This document shows positions 29,205 through 37,659 of a stretch of 46,150 nt of DNA, piece by piece. The DNA is taken from positions 1-46,150 of the forward strand of contig JASJBF010000012.1 in NCBI GenBank assembly GCA_030066685.1, read 5' to 3'. Under the pieces are notes generated by a model. The model was not told where the DNA came from, searched no databases, and saw only the letters and a list, made by a program, of their open reading frames with translations. Origin of the DNA: Kiloniellales bacterium. GTDB lineage: Bacteria > Pseudomonadota > Alphaproteobacteria > Kiloniellales > JAKSBE01. Position numbers and translations under genes: made by a program. Positions within the stretch are counted from its first letter, which is position 1; each line of letters opens with the position of its first letter.

Positions 29205-29346
29205 ACCGATCTATTGCGTAACCCGCCTGTCACAGAGAAGATTTAGATTGCGATCGCGGTCTGGGCGGTCTGAGATGACCGCAAAGATCGGTCTTCCCCT
29301 TTTCCAAAAATCCGCAAGGCCGACTCAGTCTGCAGGAGAGGACAAC

Positions 29347-31341
29347 ATGCGCAAGAGAGACCCAAATCCTTCGAGTTCGGAGCTGACCTACGAGACGTCA
29401 GAGGACATCGCGGTCAACCCGACGACCAACGCGACCTTCGGCGAGGTCGTCCAGCGCCGCTTCAACCGCCGCGAGGTGCTGCGCGGCAGCTTGGCCGTGA
29501 CCGCCATGGGCGCGATCGCCGGCCCCATCGCCTTCGGCGGCCGCCCGGCCAGGGCGGACGGCGGCAAGTTCAAGTTCACCGAGATCGAGCACGGCGTCGA
29601 CGAGACCCACCATGTCGCGCCAGGCTATAGCGCCGATATCCTGATCCGCTGGGGCGACCCGATCTTCCCGGACGCGCCGGCCTTCGACCCCCGCAACCAG
29701 ACCGCCGCCGCTCAGCTGAAGCAGTTCGGCTACAACAACGACTTCATCGGCTTCCTTCCGCTGCCGGCCGGCTCCAATGCCTCCGACCGCGGACTGCTCT
29801 GCGTCAACCACGAGTACACCAACGAAGAGCTGATGTTCCCGGGCATCGAGCGTCAGGATCGGGACCTGCAGTTCGCCGACATGACCAAGGAGATGGTCGA
29901 GGTCGAGATGGCCGCCCACGGCGGCTCGGTGATCGAGGTCAGCAAGGCCGGCGGCAAGTGGCAGGTGGTCCTGGACAGCAAGTACAACCGTCGGATCTCG
30001 CCTTACGACACCGCGACGAAGATCTCCGGTCCCGCGGCCGGCCATCCCCGGATGCAGACCGTCCAGTTCCCGAGCGGCAGCGACACCATCGGCACCCTGA
30101 ACAACTGCGCCGGCGGCATGACCCCCTGGGGCACCTACCTCATGGCCGAGGAGAACTTCCACGGCTACTTCTGGGGCGACATCGCCGGCAACCCCGAGAA
30201 GGCCAATTACGAGCGCTACGGCGTGCCCGGGCAGTGGTACGCCTGGGGTAAATACGTCGATCGCTTCAACCTGGAGAAGGACCCCAGAGCCGCCAACCAC
30301 TTCGGCTGGGTGGTCGAGGTCGACCCGCTCGACCCGAGCGCGCCGCCGGTCAAGCGCACGGCCCTCGGCCGCTTCAAGCACGAGGGCGCGGAGCCCATCG
30401 TCAACGGCGACGGCCGCGTCGTGCTCTACTCCGGCGACGACCAGCGCTTCGACTACCTCTACAAGTTCGTCACCGAAGGCCGCTACGACCCCGCCAACCG
30501 CGCGGCCAACCGCGACCTGCTGGACAAGGGCACGCTCTACGTCGCCCGCTTCGAGGACGACGGCAGCATGACCTGGCTGCCCCTGGTTCACGGCAAGGGG
30601 CCGCTGACCGCCGAGAACGGCTTCAAGTCCCAGGCCGACGTCGCGATCGAGACCCGCCGCGCGGCGGACCTGCTGGGCGCGACGCCCATGGACCGGCCCG
30701 AGGACGTGCAGCCCAATCCGAAGAGCGGCAAGGTCTACGTGATGTTGACCAACAACTCCAAGCGCAAGGCGGAACAGGTCAACGCCGCCAACCCGCGGGC
30801 CGAGAACCTCTTCGGCCACATCATCGAGCTGACCGCGCCGGGCAACGACCACGCCGCGGAGAAGTTCTCCTGGGACTTCCTGGTCAAGTGCGGCGATCCT
30901 TCGGTGGCCGAGATCGGCGCGACCTGGAACCCCAAGACCTCGAAGCACGGCTGGTTCGCGGCCCCCGACAACTGCGCCTTCGACAGCCAGGGCCGGCTCT
31001 GGATCTCCACCGATCAGGGCAGCGCCTGGAGCAAATCGGGCACCGCCGACGGCCTCTTCGGCATCGAGACGGAGGGCGACACCCGCGGCTACAGCAAGAT
31101 GTTCTTCCGGGTCCCAATCGGCGCCGAGCTTTGCGGGCCGACCTTCACGCCGGACGACAAGACCCTGTTCCTCGCGGTCCAGCATCCGGCCAGCGACGGC
31201 ACCAAGGACTTCCCCGGTTTCGAGCGGCGCTCGACCTTCGACGACGCGGCCACCCGCTGGCCCGACTTCAAGGACGGCGTGCCGCCGCGGCCCTCCGTCG
31301 TCGTCGTGACCAAGGACGACGGCGGCCCGATCGCAAGCTAG
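29347..31341 (+). CDS. Tat-exported PhoX-family phosphatase (DUF839)
   Basis: 664 residues. The ATG at 29347 is preceded by AGGAGAGG. Residues about 38-70 contain the twin-arginine signal FNRREVLRGSLAVTAMGAIAG ending at PARADGG, so the folded protein would be exported to the periplasm. The PhoX domain is clear: LLCVNHEYTNEELMF, NNCAGGMTPWGTYLMAEEN, the C-terminal FAAPDNCAFDSQGRLWISTDQG and FTPDDKTLFLAVQHP. PhoX enzymes are calcium/iron alkaline phosphatases that release phosphate from organic esters; family members with only partial activity exist, so the exact substrate is open. It is followed after 275 bases by the kinase-like lipoprotein gene on the same strand. Confidence 0.85.
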   Translation: MRKRDPNPSSSELTYETSEDIAVNPTTNATFGEVVQRRFNRREVLRGSLAVTAMGAIAGPIAFGGRPARADGGKFKFTEIEHGVDETHHVAPGYSADILIRWGDPIFPDAPAFDPRNQTAAAQLKQFGYNNDFIGFLPLPAGSNASDRGLLCVNHEYTNEELMFPGIERQDRDLQFADMTKEMVEVEMAAHGGSVIEVSKAGGKWQVVLDSKYNRRISPYDTATKISGPAAGHPRMQTVQFPSGSDTIGTLNNCAGGMTPWGTYLMAEENFHGYFWGDIAGNPEKANYERYGVPGQWYAWGKYVDRFNLEKDPRAANHFGWVVEVDPLDPSAPPVKRTALGRFKHEGAEPIVNGDGRVVLYSGDDQRFDYLYKFVTEGRYDPANRAANRDLLDKGTLYVARFEDDGSMTWLPLVHGKGPLTAENGFKSQADVAIETRRAADLLGATPMDRPEDVQPNPKSGKVYVMLTNNSKRKAEQVNAANPRAENLFGHIIELTAPGNDHAAEKFSWDFLVKCGDPSVAEIGATWNPKTSKHGWFAAPDNCAFDSQGRLWISTDQGSAWSKSGTADGLFGIETEGDTRGYSKMFFRVPIGAELCGPTFTPDDKTLFLAVQHPASDGTKDFPGFERRSTFDDAATRWPDFKDGVPPRPSVVVVTKDDGGPIAS

Positions 31342-31616: not shown

Positions 31617-32723
31617 TTGGAACACTGCCGGGGCAGAGAGCATCGGCGGGCGACAGCCGACGAAGGGGTCCCGGACCGGCTGACCGGGACCGCGCCGCTC
31701 GTCCTGCTGGCCGCCGCCAGCCTGCTCGCCCTGAGCGGCTGCGGCAGCTTCGCGCCCGTCGAGCGTCCGCCGCTCGCCTTCTCCGAGGCCGCACTTCCCG
31801 AGACCGCGGACGGATTCCCCAATTGGCCCTACCCGCCGGCGCGTATGGAGACCCTGCTGGGCGAAACCCTGGTCAGCGGAGACTTCGAGCTGGCCGAGAT
31901 CGAGAGGACCAAGTACGGCGGCAGCGGGCCGAGCCGGGTCACCCTGTACTTCACGGCGCTCGACCGGCCGATCAGCTTCAAGTGGAAGGCGGTGCCGCCG
32001 AACGACCTGGAGGCGGTGAACAACACCCCGCGTAAGGAGATCGCAGCCTACGAGATCCAGAAGCTGTTCCTGGAGCCCGAGGATTTCGTGGTGCCGACGA
32101 CGGTGCTTCACTGCGAGCCGATGGCGCGCTACGCCCGCAAGAAGGGGGCCCTGCGGCCCAGCGTGGCGGGCAGCGACTGCGTGCTGGGCGTCCTGGCCCT
32201 CTGGCTCGACGACGTGACCATGGCCAAGGCGCTCTACGAGCAGGACCGCTTCGTCACCGAGCCGGTCTACGCCCACTACATGGCGAACTTCAACCTGATG
32301 ACCTACCTCATCGACCACAAGGACGCCCGGGAAAGCAACTTCCTGGTCTCGAAGGACGACGCGCGCCGCCAGGTCTTCTCGATCGACAACGGGATCGCCT
32401 TTCAGCCCTTCCTCTACAAGTTCTTCGCCGAGAACTGGAACGTGATCCGGGTCCCGGGGCTGCGCGGCAAGTACGTCGAGCGGCTAAGGCGGCTCCGGCG
32501 CGAGGACCTCGAGGTGCTCGGCGTCGTCGCCGAGATGGAAAGGGACGAACGCGGCATCTTCGTCCCGGTCAGCCTCGGCCCGAACCTCTCGCCGAACGAG
32601 GGCACCCGGCTGCGCGGCAGCACGCTCCAGATCGGGCTCGCCAGGTTCGAGATCGACGGCGTCTGGGCGCGGATCCAGGACTTGCTCGAAAGCGTCGACA
32701 GCGGCGAGATTCCGGTCTTCTGA
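31617..32723 (+). CDS. Lipoprotein with protein-kinase-like (FAM20/HipA/PI3K-like) motifs
   Basis: 368 residues from TTG 31617; CTG 31680 is an alternative start and no ATG exists before the signal sequence. Hydrophobic PLVLLAAASLLALSGC carries a lipobox with acceptor C42. The domain reads like an atypical kinase: RVTLYFTALDRPISFKWKAV with lysine K122/K124, then a helix with E141 and VP-ending KEIAAYEIQKLF...FVVPTTV (compare the EVAAFHLDRxLGxxxVPP pattern of FAM20-like kinases), a hinge-like GVLALWLDD, a catalytic-loop-like LIDHKDARESNFLVS (D233 or D236, N241) and a metal-binding FSIDNGIAF (D257). This assignment is by eye. It would act outside the cytoplasm. A lipoprotein phosphatase gene converges on it 37 bases downstream, and a PhoX-family gene lies upstream. 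Confidence 0.6.
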   Translation: MEHCRGREHRRATADEGVPDRLTGTAPLVLLAAASLLALSGCGSFAPVERPPLAFSEAALPETADGFPNWPYPPARMETLLGETLVSGDFELAEIERTKYGGSGPSRVTLYFTALDRPISFKWKAVPPNDLEAVNNTPRKEIAAYEIQKLFLEPEDFVVPTTVLHCEPMARYARKKGALRPSVAGSDCVLGVLALWLDDVTMAKALYEQDRFVTEPVYAHYMANFNLMTYLIDHKDARESNFLVSKDDARRQVFSIDNGIAFQPFLYKFFAENWNVIRVPGLRGKYVERLRRLRREDLEVLGVVAEMERDERGIFVPVSLGPNLSPNEGTRLRGSTLQIGLARFEIDGVWARIQDLLESVDSGEIPVF

Positions 32724-32760
32724 CCGCCACTCCGCGGGCCGAAGCGCGGCTCCCCTGCCG

Positions 32761-33681
32761 TCACTCCAGAAGCGTGGCCTTGAGCTTGTCGAGGGTCTCT
32801 TCGTCGATCTGAAGACCGTCTCGGATATAGGCTTCGTAGCTGCCGTAGTCTTCCTTGATCGTCGCCAGGCCGGTCTCCAGGTACTCGCGCCGGACCTCGA
32901 GCAGGGGCCGGACCTCGGACGCCGGGGTCCTGAATCTGGAGCCGACCGCGGCGAGGCTGGACAGGAAGCTCGCCCGCTGGTCCAGGAAGGCGTTGCTCAG
33001 GAGGTAGTCCTCGATCACCGTCTCTTCCGGCACGCCGACCGCCAGGAGGACCATGGCGACGGCGAAGCCGGTCCGGTCCTTGCCTTCGGCGCAGTGGATC
33101 AGCGAGGGGGTCGACTCCGGCTCGGTCAGGCGCCTGATGACCGTGGCCCACTGCGCGCGGTAGTCGCGTGCGAAGGCCCGGTTCTGCTCGACCAGCAAGC
33201 GGTGGAACTCGCCCGGCTCGACCTCGCCGTTGACGATCTTGCGCCGGGACACCGCCCGGTCCAGCGGCGCGTAGTAAACCGGGATCTCGACCACCTCCAC
33301 CTCGGCCGGCGATATCGCCCGGACCGGCGTGATATCCCGCTCGCTCGCGCCCCCGGTCCGGTCGGCGTCCGGGATGCCGTTCGGCAGGCGGTTGGGCTTG
33401 TCGTCCCGCTCCACGTCGCTGCGCAGGTCGTAGACCCGCGAAAGTCCGAGAGCGCTCAGGGTCGAGAGGTCTTCGCGGGTCAGGCTGGACAAGTCGTCGG
33501 AGCGGTAGAGCACGCCCTTCTTGACCCGACGGCCATCCGAAGTGGCGTAGCCGCCGACGTCGCGGAAATTCGAAGCGCCGATCATCGGCACGTGGTTCGG
33601 ATGCCGGGACGAGGCGCTGCAACCCACCAGGAAGGCGGTGACGGAAAGCATGAGCTTTCTGAGAAACGGCGGGCTTCGCAT
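32761..33681 (-). CDS. Lipoprotein tyrosine/lipid phosphatase (Tyr_phosphatase3-like)
   Basis: 306 residues from ATG 33681. Lipoprotein signal MRSPPFLRKLMLSVTAFLVGC with acceptor C21, so the enzyme is extracytoplasmic. The domain opens IGASNFRDVGGYATSDGRRVKKGVLYRSDDL and LGLSRVYDLRSDVER, the standard start of this family, and the P-loop is IHCAEGKDRTGFAV with nucleophile C197 and R203 (CX5R). The Lys and Asp in CAEGKDR resemble the mycobacterial MptpB and PTEN-type loops, which can act on phosphoinositides as well as Tyr/Ser/Thr phosphate. All catalytic residues are intact. It converges with the kinase-like lipoprotein gene, which suggests a functional pair. Confidence 0.85.
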   Translation of the reverse strand: MRSPPFLRKLMLSVTAFLVGCSASSRHPNHVPMIGASNFRDVGGYATSDGRRVKKGVLYRSDDLSSLTREDLSTLSALGLSRVYDLRSDVERDDKPNRLPNGIPDADRTGGASERDITPVRAISPAEVEVVEIPVYYAPLDRAVSRRKIVNGEVEPGEFHRLLVEQNRAFARDYRAQWATVIRRLTEPESTPSLIHCAEGKDRTGFAVAMVLLAVGVPEETVIEDYLLSNAFLDQRASFLSSLAAVGSRFRTPASEVRPLLEVRREYLETGLATIKEDYGSYEAYIRDGLQIDEETLDKLKATLLE

Positions 33682-35166: not shown

Positions 35167-36225
35167 CTAAGACTGCGGCCCCAAGCACTTGGTTAGAGAG
35201 GCGGCCAGCCCCCGCATGATCTGGCCATAGGCCGCCGGTCCCGCGGCCAGTTCGGCGCCCAGCGGATCCAGAACCGCCGTTCGGGCCGACGTGCCCTCGA
35301 TGACCGTAGAGACCAGGGCAGGCGCGAACTGCGGCTCGGAAAAGACGCAGCGGGCACCGGTCTGGACGATCTTTTCGCGCACTTCGCGGAGGCGCTTGGC
35401 GCCGGGCGTCCGGCCTTCGTCAACCGAAATCGATCCCACCGCCGTCAGGCCGTAGTGAGCTTCGAAGTAGTGGTAAGCGTCGTGGAACACCACGAAGGGC
35501 GTGTCCTTGACCGCCGACAGATCCCTTCGCAACTCGCCGTCCAATGCTTCCAGTTCGGCAAGAGTCGCCTTGCCATTGGCTTGGTAGCGCTCCGCATTGG
35601 CCGGATCGGCATCGCCCAGGGCTTTCACCGTCGCCTTGACGATGACCTCGGCGTTGTGCGGGTCCAGCCAAAGGTGAAGGTTCTTGTCGTGTTCCGCATG
35701 ACCCGCGTGCTCAGCGTGCTCGTGGGCCTTCTCTTCGTCGGCGTGCGCCTTCTCGGCGTGCTCGTGACTCTCGGCGTGCTCGTGACTCTCGGCGTGCCCG
35801 TGACTCTCGTCGTGATGGTCGGCCTCGGCGTGGTCCTCGTGCGCATGGACCTCCCAAGCACCGCCTTCTCGCGCCTCCAGAAGCTCAATATCGGGCAATG
35901 CCGCGATCTCGACGAGCCTTGCCTGTCCTGACAGGGCGTCCAGCGGCTCGACCAGGAAGGTCTCCATGCCCTCGCCGACCCAAAAGATCAGCTTCGCCCG
36001 GTTCAAGGCCTTGGCATCGGACGGCCTGAGGCTGTAGCTGTGCGGAGACGCCGCGCCCTTCAACAGCAGGCTTGGCGCGCCGACATCCCCCATCACCGAG
36101 GCGACGAGGCTGTGAACAGGCTTGATGGTGACCACGACCTCGGGCGCCTCCGACCGAGCCGGTCCTGCCAAGCCGAGCAGCACTGCGAGTCCCAAGGCAC
36201 CTGCGCCCGCCCTTTCCATCGCCAT
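35167..36225 (-). CDS. znuA: Periplasmic zinc-binding protein ZnuA
   Basis: 352 residues. Captures zinc in the periplasm and hands it to ZnuBC. Signal peptide (GLAVLLGLAGPARS), then the cluster A-I fold with VVVTIKPVHSLVASVM, metal His H62 in SPHSYSLRPSD, H184 region NLHLWLDPHN and FHDAYHYFEAHYG. Between them, residues about 127-184 form a long His/Glu/Asp-rich loop with repeated HAESHEH units; such loops bind extra zinc and distinguish zinc from manganese carriers. The ATG at 36225 has GGGAGAAG upstream. Divergent from zur, with a Zur-box-like dyad in the 136-base gap. Confidence 0.92.
   Translation of the reverse strand: MAMERAGAGALGLAVLLGLAGPARSEAPEVVVTIKPVHSLVASVMGDVGAPSLLLKGAASPHSYSLRPSDAKALNRAKLIFWVGEGMETFLVEPLDALSGQARLVEIAALPDIELLEAREGGAWEVHAHEDHAEADHHDESHGHAESHEHAESHEHAEKAHADEEKAHEHAEHAGHAEHDKNLHLWLDPHNAEVIVKATVKALGDADPANAERYQANGKATLAELEALDGELRRDLSAVKDTPFVVFHDAYHYFEAHYGLTAVGSISVDEGRTPGAKRLREVREKIVQTGARCVFSEPQFAPALVSTVIEGTSARTAVLDPLGAELAAGPAAYGQIMRGLAASLTKCLGPQS
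35758..35811. repeat. Three 18-bp tandem repeats in the His-rich loop of znuA
   Basis: Units at 35758-35775 and 35776-35793 are identical (plus strand GTGCTCGTGACTCTCGGC) and the third, 35794-35811, differs at two bases. They encode the HAESHE-type metal-binding repeats, so unit gain or loss would change the loop length in steps of six residues without shifting frame. Confidence 0.85.
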
Positions 36226-36292
36226 CGCGCTTCTCCCTATTACGACAAGCTCATTTCGGACAGCCCTGACGCGGCCTGACCGCTTGATCATT

Positions 36293-36307
36293 TGTTATAG
36301 TATTTCA
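36293..36307. promoter_or_regulatory. Zur-box-like dyad between znuA and zur
   Basis: TGTTATAGTATTTCA is an imperfect dyad around the central G (5 of 7 positions symmetric) in the most AT-rich stretch of the gap. It resembles the alphaproteobacterial Zur operator with GTTATA/TATAAC half-sites. Position between the divergent znuA and zur-znuCB units fits zinc-dependent repression of both. Predicted only. Confidence 0.6.
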
Positions 36308-36361
36308 TTTTTGTTTTCAATAGGCTTGGCCGGTTTCGATAAGGTGGGCGAGACGATCATC

Positions 36362-36859
36362 ATGGTCAGGAAAAACGGGCCACCACGTCGCCAGGCCGAT
36401 CAGGGCCACGATCACGAGCGCTGCATTGCCGATGCGCTCGAGACCGCGGACGCGCTCTGCGCCCGGCGCGGCGTCCGGCTGACCAAGCTGCGGCGCCGGG
36501 TGCTGGAGCTGGTCTGGACCAGCCATGCCCCGATCGGCGCCTACGACGTCCTGCGCCGGCTGAGCCAGGAACATGAGGGGGCTGCGCCGCCGACGGTATA
36601 TCGGGCCTTGGACTTCCTGCTGGAGCAGGGTCTCATCCACAGGATCGAGAGCCTCAATGCCTTCGTCGGCTGCGCCGATCCGGCGGAGGCCCACACCAGC
36701 CAGTTCCTAATCTGCCAGGACTGCGGCGCCGCCGCGGAGCTGCAGGATCCGGCGATCAACCGTGCCCTCGCCCGCTCCGCCGGCAGCCTGGGCTTTCTGG
36801 TCAAGGACAAGACCGTCGAGCTGCGCGGCCTCTGCGCGCGGTGCCGAGGCTCGGCGTGA
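36362..36859 (+). CDS. zur: Zinc-responsive Fur-family repressor Zur
   Basis: 165 residues. Winged-helix domain RLTKLRRRVLELVW, IGAYDVLRRLSQ and PPTVYRALDFLLEQGLIHRIESLNAFVGC, followed by the dimer domain. Two CxxC pairs, C118/C121 (ICQDCG) and C158/C161 (LCARC), form the structural zinc site typical of Zur. HTSQFLICQDCG is the usual Zur segment. With zinc bound it represses zinc-uptake genes. The stop overlaps the znuC ATG by one base (TGATG), so zur, znuC and znuB are translated together. No strong ribosome site precedes the ATG at 36362; an upstream start in the same frame cannot be fully excluded. Confidence 0.9.
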   Translation: MVRKNGPPRRQADQGHDHERCIADALETADALCARRGVRLTKLRRRVLELVWTSHAPIGAYDVLRRLSQEHEGAAPPTVYRALDFLLEQGLIHRIESLNAFVGCADPAEAHTSQFLICQDCGAAAELQDPAINRALARSAGSLGFLVKDKTVELRGLCARCRGSA

Positions 36860-37659
36860 TGACCGCGACCGCGCCGCACCCGCCGTCGAGGAACGAGGGA
36901 CCGGCCCTGGTCACGGCCCAGGGCATCGACGTCGCCTTCGGCCGCACCACCGTTCTTTCCGGTGTCGACCTCGCGGTCCACCGGGGCGAGATCGTCACCC
37001 TGATCGGCCCCAACGGCTCCGGCAAGACGACCCTGGTGCGGGTGATCCTTGGCCTGCTGAAGCCGCAGGGCGGAGAGGTCCGGCGCGGCCCCGGACTCAC
37101 CACCGGCTACGTGCCGCAGCGTCTGCACATCGACCCGGCCCTGCCCATGACCGCCCGACGCTTTCTCGCGCTGCCGCGGCGGCAGCCGGAGGACGCGCTG
37201 CACCGGGTCCTGGCGGAAGTGGGGGCCGGCTACCTGATCGATCAGCCCATCCAGAGCCTCTCGGGCGGCGAGACCCAGCGCCTTCTCCTGGCCCGCGCCC
37301 TGCTGCGCGACCCCGACCTGCTGGTGCTCGACGAGCCGCTCCAGGGGGTGGACTTCAACGGCCAACTGGCGCTCTTCGAGCTGATCGGCGGCGTCCGGGA
37401 CGAGCGCCGTTGCGGCATCCTGATGGTCTCCCACGACCTGCACCTGGTCATGGCCGGTACTGACCGGGTGATCTGCCTCAACCATCACGTCTGCTGCACC
37501 GGCGCGCCCGAGGCGGTGAGCCGGCATCCCGAGTACCTCGCCCTCTTCGGGCCGCGGGGCGCCGAGGGTCTGGCGGTCTACACCCATGCCCACGACCACC
37601 AGCACGACATCTCCGGCGCCGTGGTCGAGGACCGCAAGCCGGGCCGAGCGGACCCCTGA
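36859..37659 (+). CDS. znuC: Zinc ABC transporter ATP-binding protein ZnuC
   Basis: 266 residues. Walker A LIGPNGSGKTTLVR, Q-loop GYVPQRLHID, signature LSGGETQR, Walker B LLVLDEPLQGVD and switch His VSHDLHLVM are intact. The C-terminal His-containing tail (YTHAHDHQHDISG) is typical for ZnuC and may sense or bind zinc. It drives import through ZnuB. Start and stop overlap the neighbouring genes by one base each (TGATG), a tightly coupled operon. Confidence 0.93.
   Translation: MTATAPHPPSRNEGPALVTAQGIDVAFGRTTVLSGVDLAVHRGEIVTLIGPNGSGKTTLVRVILGLLKPQGGEVRRGPGLTTGYVPQRLHIDPALPMTARRFLALPRRQPEDALHRVLAEVGAGYLIDQPIQSLSGGETQRLLLARALLRDPDLLVLDEPLQGVDFNGQLALFELIGGVRDERRCGILMVSHDLHLVMAGTDRVICLNHHVCCTGAPEAVSRHPEYLALFGPRGAEGLAVYTHAHDHQHDISGAVVEDRKPGRADP

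Follow-up and report, generated by a model that had tools for sequence, protein, structure and literature searches.

We find that a family of bacterial proteins of predicted kinase fold, here called KLP (kinase-like lipoprotein), is patchily distributed over three groups of bacteria, and that its commonest neighbour is a gene for an ATP:ADP translocase of the TLC/NTT type. An earlier note on the DNA studied here had described one locus, at which a kinase-like lipoprotein faces a lipoprotein phosphatase (PTP); the occurrence in three groups and the translocase, rather than PTP, as commonest neighbour go beyond it. KLP proteins appear from their N-termini to be exported and lipid-anchored, and we think it fairly probable that they are kinases of FAM20/PI4KII fold acting on carrier-supplied ATP which, with an exported phosphatase, would form an envelope phosphorylation module. 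The fold, export signals and linkage are computed; catalysis, the substrate, the direction of ATP flow and a substrate shared by kinase and phosphatase are what we infer.

The window locus and the predicted fold of KLP

The window, the whole 46,150-nucleotide stretch of Kiloniellales DNA that was analysed, holds the KLP and PTP genes in convergent orientation, with 37 bases (32724-32760) between their 3' ends, as previously described (Table 1). Both have a lipobox by reading, that of PTP being LVGC, and the CAEGKDR sequence reported before is present in PTP, a Y_phosphatase3 protein by Pfam (E 1.5e-64). The start codon of KLP is uncertain; residue numbers are positions in the full-length protein of Table 1, and the part modelled is the mature protein from Cys 42. 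In the PhoX-family protein a Tat signal is matched weakly, at a score that falls short of Pfam's cut-off. Elsewhere in the window, PTP is adjoined by a putative cyclase (PF04199; 33884-34981) that likewise matches a Tat signal weakly, and ZnuA (PF01297) stands beside frames for a Fur-like regulator and an ABC ATPase, the latter two recognised by eye only, in what looks like a zinc uptake locus (35170-37659).

Table 1. Features of the KLP-PTP locus, in window coordinates
Feature	Position	Strand	Details
PhoX-family phosphatase gene, upstream of KLP	29338..31341	+	E 2.6e-170
KLP gene	31617..32723	+	368 aa from TTG start (31617); stop 32723
Hydrophobic signal core and lipobox LSGC of KLP	31695..31742	+	Cys 42 codon 31740-31742; by reading and alignments
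K122, beta-3 lysine of KLP	31980..31982	+	50/53 relatives; strand order in model
E141 of KLP	32037..32039	+	49/53; motif-aligned (EIAAY/EIAAF) with canonical alpha-C Glu, ceFam20 Glu218
D236, catalytic-loop Asp of KLP	32322..32324	+	53/53 relatives
N241, metal-binding position of KLP	32337..32339	+	51/53 relatives
D257-N-G, DFG-equivalent of KLP	32385..32393	+	D 53/53, N258 51, G259 44
PTP gene, convergent lipoprotein phosphatase	32761..33681	-	ATG 33681, stop 32761; 306 aa; PF13350
P-loop HCAEGKDRTG of PTP	33067..33096	-	sequence

An AlphaFold2 model of mature KLP (327 aa, 53-sequence alignment) has a pLDDT of 91.0 and a pTM of 0.91, and replaces an earlier model from 9 sequences in which the catalytic loop was poor (pLDDT 63). 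The predicted structure has the two-lobed kinase fold on which the earlier note had staked its reading, and it is closest to Fam20 and PI4KII. The best solved match in VIA-align is hydra Fam20 (5xoo and 5xom, Z 16.8, 255-257 residues aligned, rmsd 3.5-3.7), followed by 4kqb, a Golgi casein kinase with Mn/ADP (Z 16.6), Fam20A (Z 15.9) and PI4KII (Z 15.3-14.5, PI4KII-beta at 15.3), with the bacterial atypical kinase CtkA of H. pylori (Z 11.7), ATM (11.2) and VPS34 (about 10) lower down. Foldseek places PI4KII-alpha in the top row (E 1.3e-7, TM 0.50), then further PI4KII and JNK rows, so that ordinary protein kinases are also present (JNK, from E 2.6e-5); Fam20 is absent among its 50 matches listed, as are HipA and CotH among the 50 matches listed in the structural comparison. 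Since only about 1.5 Z separate Fam20 from PI4KII, we do not press the order of the two.

Family models touch KLP faintly. The window protein has a Pfam PI3_PI4_kinase (PF00454) match over residues 218-265 at E 0.046, its 14.1 bits lying below the cut-off of 27.1; at E up to 0.1, 22 of 53 members match this family (best 1.5e-5) and two match Fam20C (PF06702; best 0.033), the window copy not being one of them. NCBIfam gives no family for the window protein at E up to 0.01, and a relative, L094, touches TIGR03843 at E 0.0083, far below that model's cut-off. A search of the KLP profile against solved structures is headed by tyrosyl-tRNA synthetases (E 0.019), with a PI3 kinase no better than 0.46; we take the synthetase matches as chance because synthetases are absent from the KLP structural rows among the matches listed. 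By their family models KLP is thus outside both FAM20 and the PI3/PI4 kinases, with a predicted fold of that kind, and it probably works as they do. The D-x4-N catalytic loop of PI3 kinases is found in KLP also, which resembles PI4KII and the PI3/PI4 kinases in this, in predicted fold and in the weak PF00454 matches, but differs from them in being exported and in its 15-17% identity in structural alignment.

Lysine, glutamate, two aspartates and an asparagine at the kinase positions are kept together (K122, E141, D236, N241, D257) in 44 of 53 aligned relatives, the window copy included. The earlier note had named these five along with K124 and D233, which are less constant (34/53 and 18/53) and drop out of the set. 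The nine exceptions are four E141Q, two N241Q and three K122H. Deposited Fam20 sequences read NAEIAAF and MDRHHYE...HLDNGRGF where KLP has PRKEIAAY and KDARESN...SIDNGIAF; by this motif matching E141 falls on the canonical alpha-C Glu and D236 on the catalytic Asp, N241 takes the metal site, and D257 stands at the DFG Asp. With Fam20A/B/C, the secretory-pathway kinases by which animals phosphorylate the proteins they secrete, KLP shares the predicted fold, export from the cytosol, the EIAA(F/Y) and DNGxxF motifs, the catalytic Asp and the DFG-equivalent Asp. Unlike FAM20 kinases, KLP is bacterial, many of its members are lipoproteins, and the metal position is Asn rather than Glu. A further position, ceFam20 Glu213, corresponds to KLP N136 by motif offset, which is not a residue-level structural alignment, and is N in 48, D in 3 and A in 2 of the 53 rows.

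A clade of paralogues, L002, L003, L007 and L011, comprises the four E141Q members, all with DND for DNG, and this type accounts for two of the three KLP copies in the window's genome. These proteins could be pseudokinase partners. Another reading is that KLP as such is a pseudokinase and serves as a sensor of nucleotides or as a scaffold, reporting extracytoplasmic ATP or ADP to the translocase; two of the four clade members do adjoin a translocase (L002; L011, mapped as L120). Fam20A, itself a pseudokinase, is known to partner Fam20C, and Glu213 is important in the latter, according to the parts available of PMC5865150, PMC5413348 and PMC7948968. We regard a pseudokinase role for the family as improbable, with all five residues kept in 44 of 53 members, the window copy among them. 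The E141Q clade had been considered as a copy of the Glu-to-Gln change of Fam20A, a parallel we abandoned since motif alignment puts E141 at Glu218 and not at Glu213.

A second alternative is that KLP phosphorylates lipids in the manner of PI4KII; its target would be a phospholipid or inositol lipid of the envelope, from which the phosphatase would remove the phosphate. PI4KII is second in structural alignment (Z 15.3) and first in Foldseek, and PI3_PI4_kinase is the Pfam family touched by most members. The P-loop of PTP fits the HCXXGKDR(T/A)G motif of MptpB-type enzymes, and the HCXXGKDR signature is linked with phosphoinositide activity in the portion available of PMC3091653. PI4KII close behind Fam20 and a phosphoinositide-type P-loop in PTP make this a serious rival. 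We nevertheless judge it unlikely: the structural alignment slightly favours Fam20, which also has the EIAA(Y/F) and DNGxxF motifs in common with KLP, and no lipid-binding part was identified in KLP.

Export signals and distribution of the family

A strict lipobox pattern is present at 21 of 54 KLP loci. Most of the others have, by reading, a hydrophobic N-terminus that ends in a looser Cys motif or an AxA-type Sec site, the latter in the Gemmatimonadota-type rows; for L096, which is truncated near a contig end, reading revealed no export signal. Of the 53 rows, 34 have Cys166 together with Cys188, 17 have neither and 2 have one without the other, a joint presence and absence as expected for a disulfide. 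This single co-varying pair compares with four disulfides in Fam20, as given in the parts available of the Fam20 papers (PMC5865150, PMC5413348, PMC7948968).

In the window's genome KLP occurs in three copies, of which L002 and L003 are 51-53% identical to the window copy. Single-sequence searches find KLP in 7 of 58 relatives, the window's genome counted, and in only one of 240 genomes of the window's class, its own; with a 53-row profile the same is true of the window's phylum (1/398). A contig scan with a 9-row alignment gives 11 loci, in Kiloniellales, Rhodospirillales, Myxococcota, Deltaproteobacteria and Gemmatimonadetes. In the phylum to which G295 belongs, a 15-row profile finds KLP in 29 of 377 genomes, G295-G298 (loci L017, L020, L021 and L022) having been known as carriers before the search; in that of G299 (locus L023) it finds KLP in 24 of 298. 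In the profile searches only the top 5 or 6 first-look candidates of each genome were scored, and these counts may miss copies. The 59 KLP-bearing genomes fall in the window's order, a Myxococcota-type and a Gemmatimonadota-type phylum; they are related, the Gemmatimonadota-type rows being especially close kin, and counts over them are not independent. From 81 matching places in 60 genomes, 71 loci in 59 genomes were used for counts, the ten dropped being a 33-residue piece (G848), a contig-end fragment (G241) and eight second pieces or short fragments (G298, G390, G398, G446, G462, G484, G626, G632).

Linkage to translocases and phosphatases, and a proposed module

At 29 of 71 loci, in 29 of 59 genomes, a Pfam TLC (PF03219) gene shares the contig with KLP at a distance of at most 10 kb, against a chance expectation of 0.44 loci. 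A local TLC profile adds G297, G644, G652, G694 and G876, which brings the genomes to 34 of 59; this profile and the local metallophosphatase profile were partly trained on counted loci, while the Pfam TLC count was not. TLC rows were reduced to about one per gene, 76 for the linkage count and 75 for the chance estimate. On a map of 54 loci a translocase is present in 29, at all of them within 3.7 kb of KLP and at 10 within 0.4 kb. None was found near KLP in 25 of the 59 genomes, some of them on short contigs. G484 and G666, which have several KLP places each, show none there, and the window copy has none nearby; in the window's genome the translocase adjoins the paralogue L002 (contig C7). 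At the level of whole genomes, TLC is found in 50 of 59 with KLP vs 14 of 54 chosen by serial number from those without a KLP match (Fisher 1.6e-10, ignoring kinship).

The arrangement varies. KLP is followed by an abutting TLC gene at L002, L014, L015, L016, L082 and L093, the two are divergent at L090, L094, L095 and L098, the order is KLP-PTP-TLC at L120, and L023, L101 and their kin have TLC-HEAT-cNMP, a response regulator, KLP and a metallophosphatase in that order. The TLC trait changes at least 10 times on the KLP tree (53 rows, 28 of them hand-marked TLC-positive; 26 of 50 inner branches well supported). It might be argued that the linkage is incidental, a matter of co-inherited islands without a functional tie, given that close kin inflate the counts and that 25 of 59 genomes have no carrier near KLP. 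We consider this very unlikely in view of the 29 loci observed against 0.44 expected, and of the several gene orders and orientations and the repeated changes on the tree, spread over three groups.

These neighbours belong to the TLC/NTT transporters both by PF03219 and by their match to solved ADP,ATP carriers. The L002-adjacent protein scores 79.2 bits against a cut-off of 21, that of L021 falling just below it at 19.9, and matches the chloroplast ADP,ATP carrier 1 (9j3j, E 9.6e-15) and a second solved carrier (9j3n, 6.1e-11), with which it has a KExxYxPx5KxKxKAxID stretch in common. The possibility of KLP hidden beside carriers in genomes without a KLP match was set aside, as 0 of 20 such carrier regions held KLP at E up to 0.01. 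A Pfam scan of ten neighbours in these regions gave no kinase family; since six of the ten matched no Pfam family, further ATP users may exist there.

Phosphatase genes adjoin KLP in more than one form. The solved relatives of PTP are 8dhi (E 2.7e-30) and PTPB (1ywf, E 7.6e-23), and PTP resembles MptpB-type atypical lipid phosphatases in the latter match, in its HCXXGKDR P-loop and in PF13350, but differs from them in its lipoprotein signal and its pairing with a kinase-like gene. It lies within 2.4 kb of KLP in five of the seven KLP genomes of the window's order (G000, G240, G244, G250 and G256), which are also 5 of the 54 mapped loci; in G260 the arrangement appears split over two contigs, and in G241 no PTP was seen beside KLP. 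In the other 52 KLP genomes searched, PF13350 was found within 10 kb of none of the counted loci, and the family is itself common (6 of 14 control genomes). An MptpB-type phosphatase as general partner of KLP hence fails outside the window's order. PhoX adjoins KLP in three genomes of the genus, the window's, G240 (L006, L013) and G241 (L012), where it stands beside a KLP fragment at a contig end. The neighbourhood is thus conserved, for PTP within the order and for PhoX within the genus, which together with the predicted fold and the kept K/E/D/N/D set supports the earlier reading of KLP as an atypical-kinase lipoprotein.

A calcineurin-like phosphatase gene lies less than 100 bases from KLP at 15 of 54 mapped loci, 14 of Gemmatimonadota type and L017, as called by Pfam Metallophos for L023 (8.1e-11) and L017 (8e-5) and by the local profile for the others. 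With MptpB-type enzymes at some loci and calcineurin-like ones at others, adjacency of kinase-like and phosphatase genes recurs with unrelated phosphatases. At L101 the calcineurin-like protein shows similarity to bis(5'-nucleosyl)-tetraphosphatase as well (E 2.4e-8), so that it may act on nucleotides and not on a phosphorylated product.

The simplest account of linkage, export and fold combined is ATP-out/ADP-in antiport serving an exported kinase. In the module we favour, the TLC/NTT translocase would swap cytosolic ATP for periplasmic ADP, and exported, lipid-anchored KLP would use that ATP outside the cytoplasm to phosphorylate an envelope protein, glycan or lipid; its product, ADP, would be the substrate that the carrier takes back, closing the loop. 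A co-encoded exported phosphatase, MptpB-type here and calcineurin-like in Gemmatimonadota-type genomes, would then remove or recycle the phosphate, and KLP and PTP may act on one substrate. Because the carrier in the window's genome adjoins L002, its service to the window copy would be a further step. Known parasite NTTs import ATP, according to the part available of PMC5381601, which counts against taking the direction of the carrier as settled.

NTT genes also occur in free-living bacteria, and the role of their HEAT/cNBD fusions is called unknown in what is available of the same paper (PMC5381601), whose main text does not contain the word kinase. HEAT and cNMP fusions like these NTT-HEAT and NTT-HEAT-cNBD proteins are also found beside KLP. 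ATP has been found in the periplasm and in vesicles, by a route given as unknown in the part available of a review (PMC7432876). Four Legionella families and the known kinases LepB and AnkK have been placed with the FAM20/CotH group (PMC9758233, as available in part), so kinases on this side of the fold have precedents in bacteria. No description of an exported bacterial Fam20-like kinase or of its link to NTT was found among the matches listed from the open-access literature. More tentatively, it is quite possible that several bacterial groups energise the periplasm through NTT-exported ATP for kinase signalling or modification, as a counterpart of the Golgi kinase system. If so, periplasmic ATP use would also account for the retention of NTT genes in free-living bacteria. 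With its kinase fold, its export signals and its repeated position beside a carrier, the family offers a candidate supply and a candidate user of periplasmic ATP, two questions that are directly testable, and the KLP family suggests how bacteria could phosphorylate envelope components.

Other genes beside KLP

At L094, KLP and TLC are accompanied by beta-lactamase-like genes and by a protein whose domains are of the PPDK ATP-binding and PEP-utiliser types. Genes that cluster with these occur at L090 and L095, and a partial one at L098. The PPDK/PEP-synthase-like proteins (L090:12725-15664, L094:5137-8109, L095:10689-13616; identified by Pfam at L094 and by clustering at the other two) have N-termini that read as signal peptides, and this protein looks like a second exported ATP enzyme in three KLP/TLC clusters. 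In the Gemmatimonadota-type clusters a response regulator (L101:6653-7135, assigned by cluster with L023:6251-6724) or a histidine-kinase-type gene (L117:2750-3574) lies between TLC and KLP. A protein with a canonical Pkinase domain is encoded directly 3' of KLP at L104:2423-3745, and phytase-like and SdiA-regulated proteins occur near KLP at L014:5607-6671 and L003:2948-3841. A fusion of a dicarboxylate symporter with a solute-binding domain is found near KLP at three distant loci (L018:7155-9428, L082:2873-5029 and L120:12195-14390).
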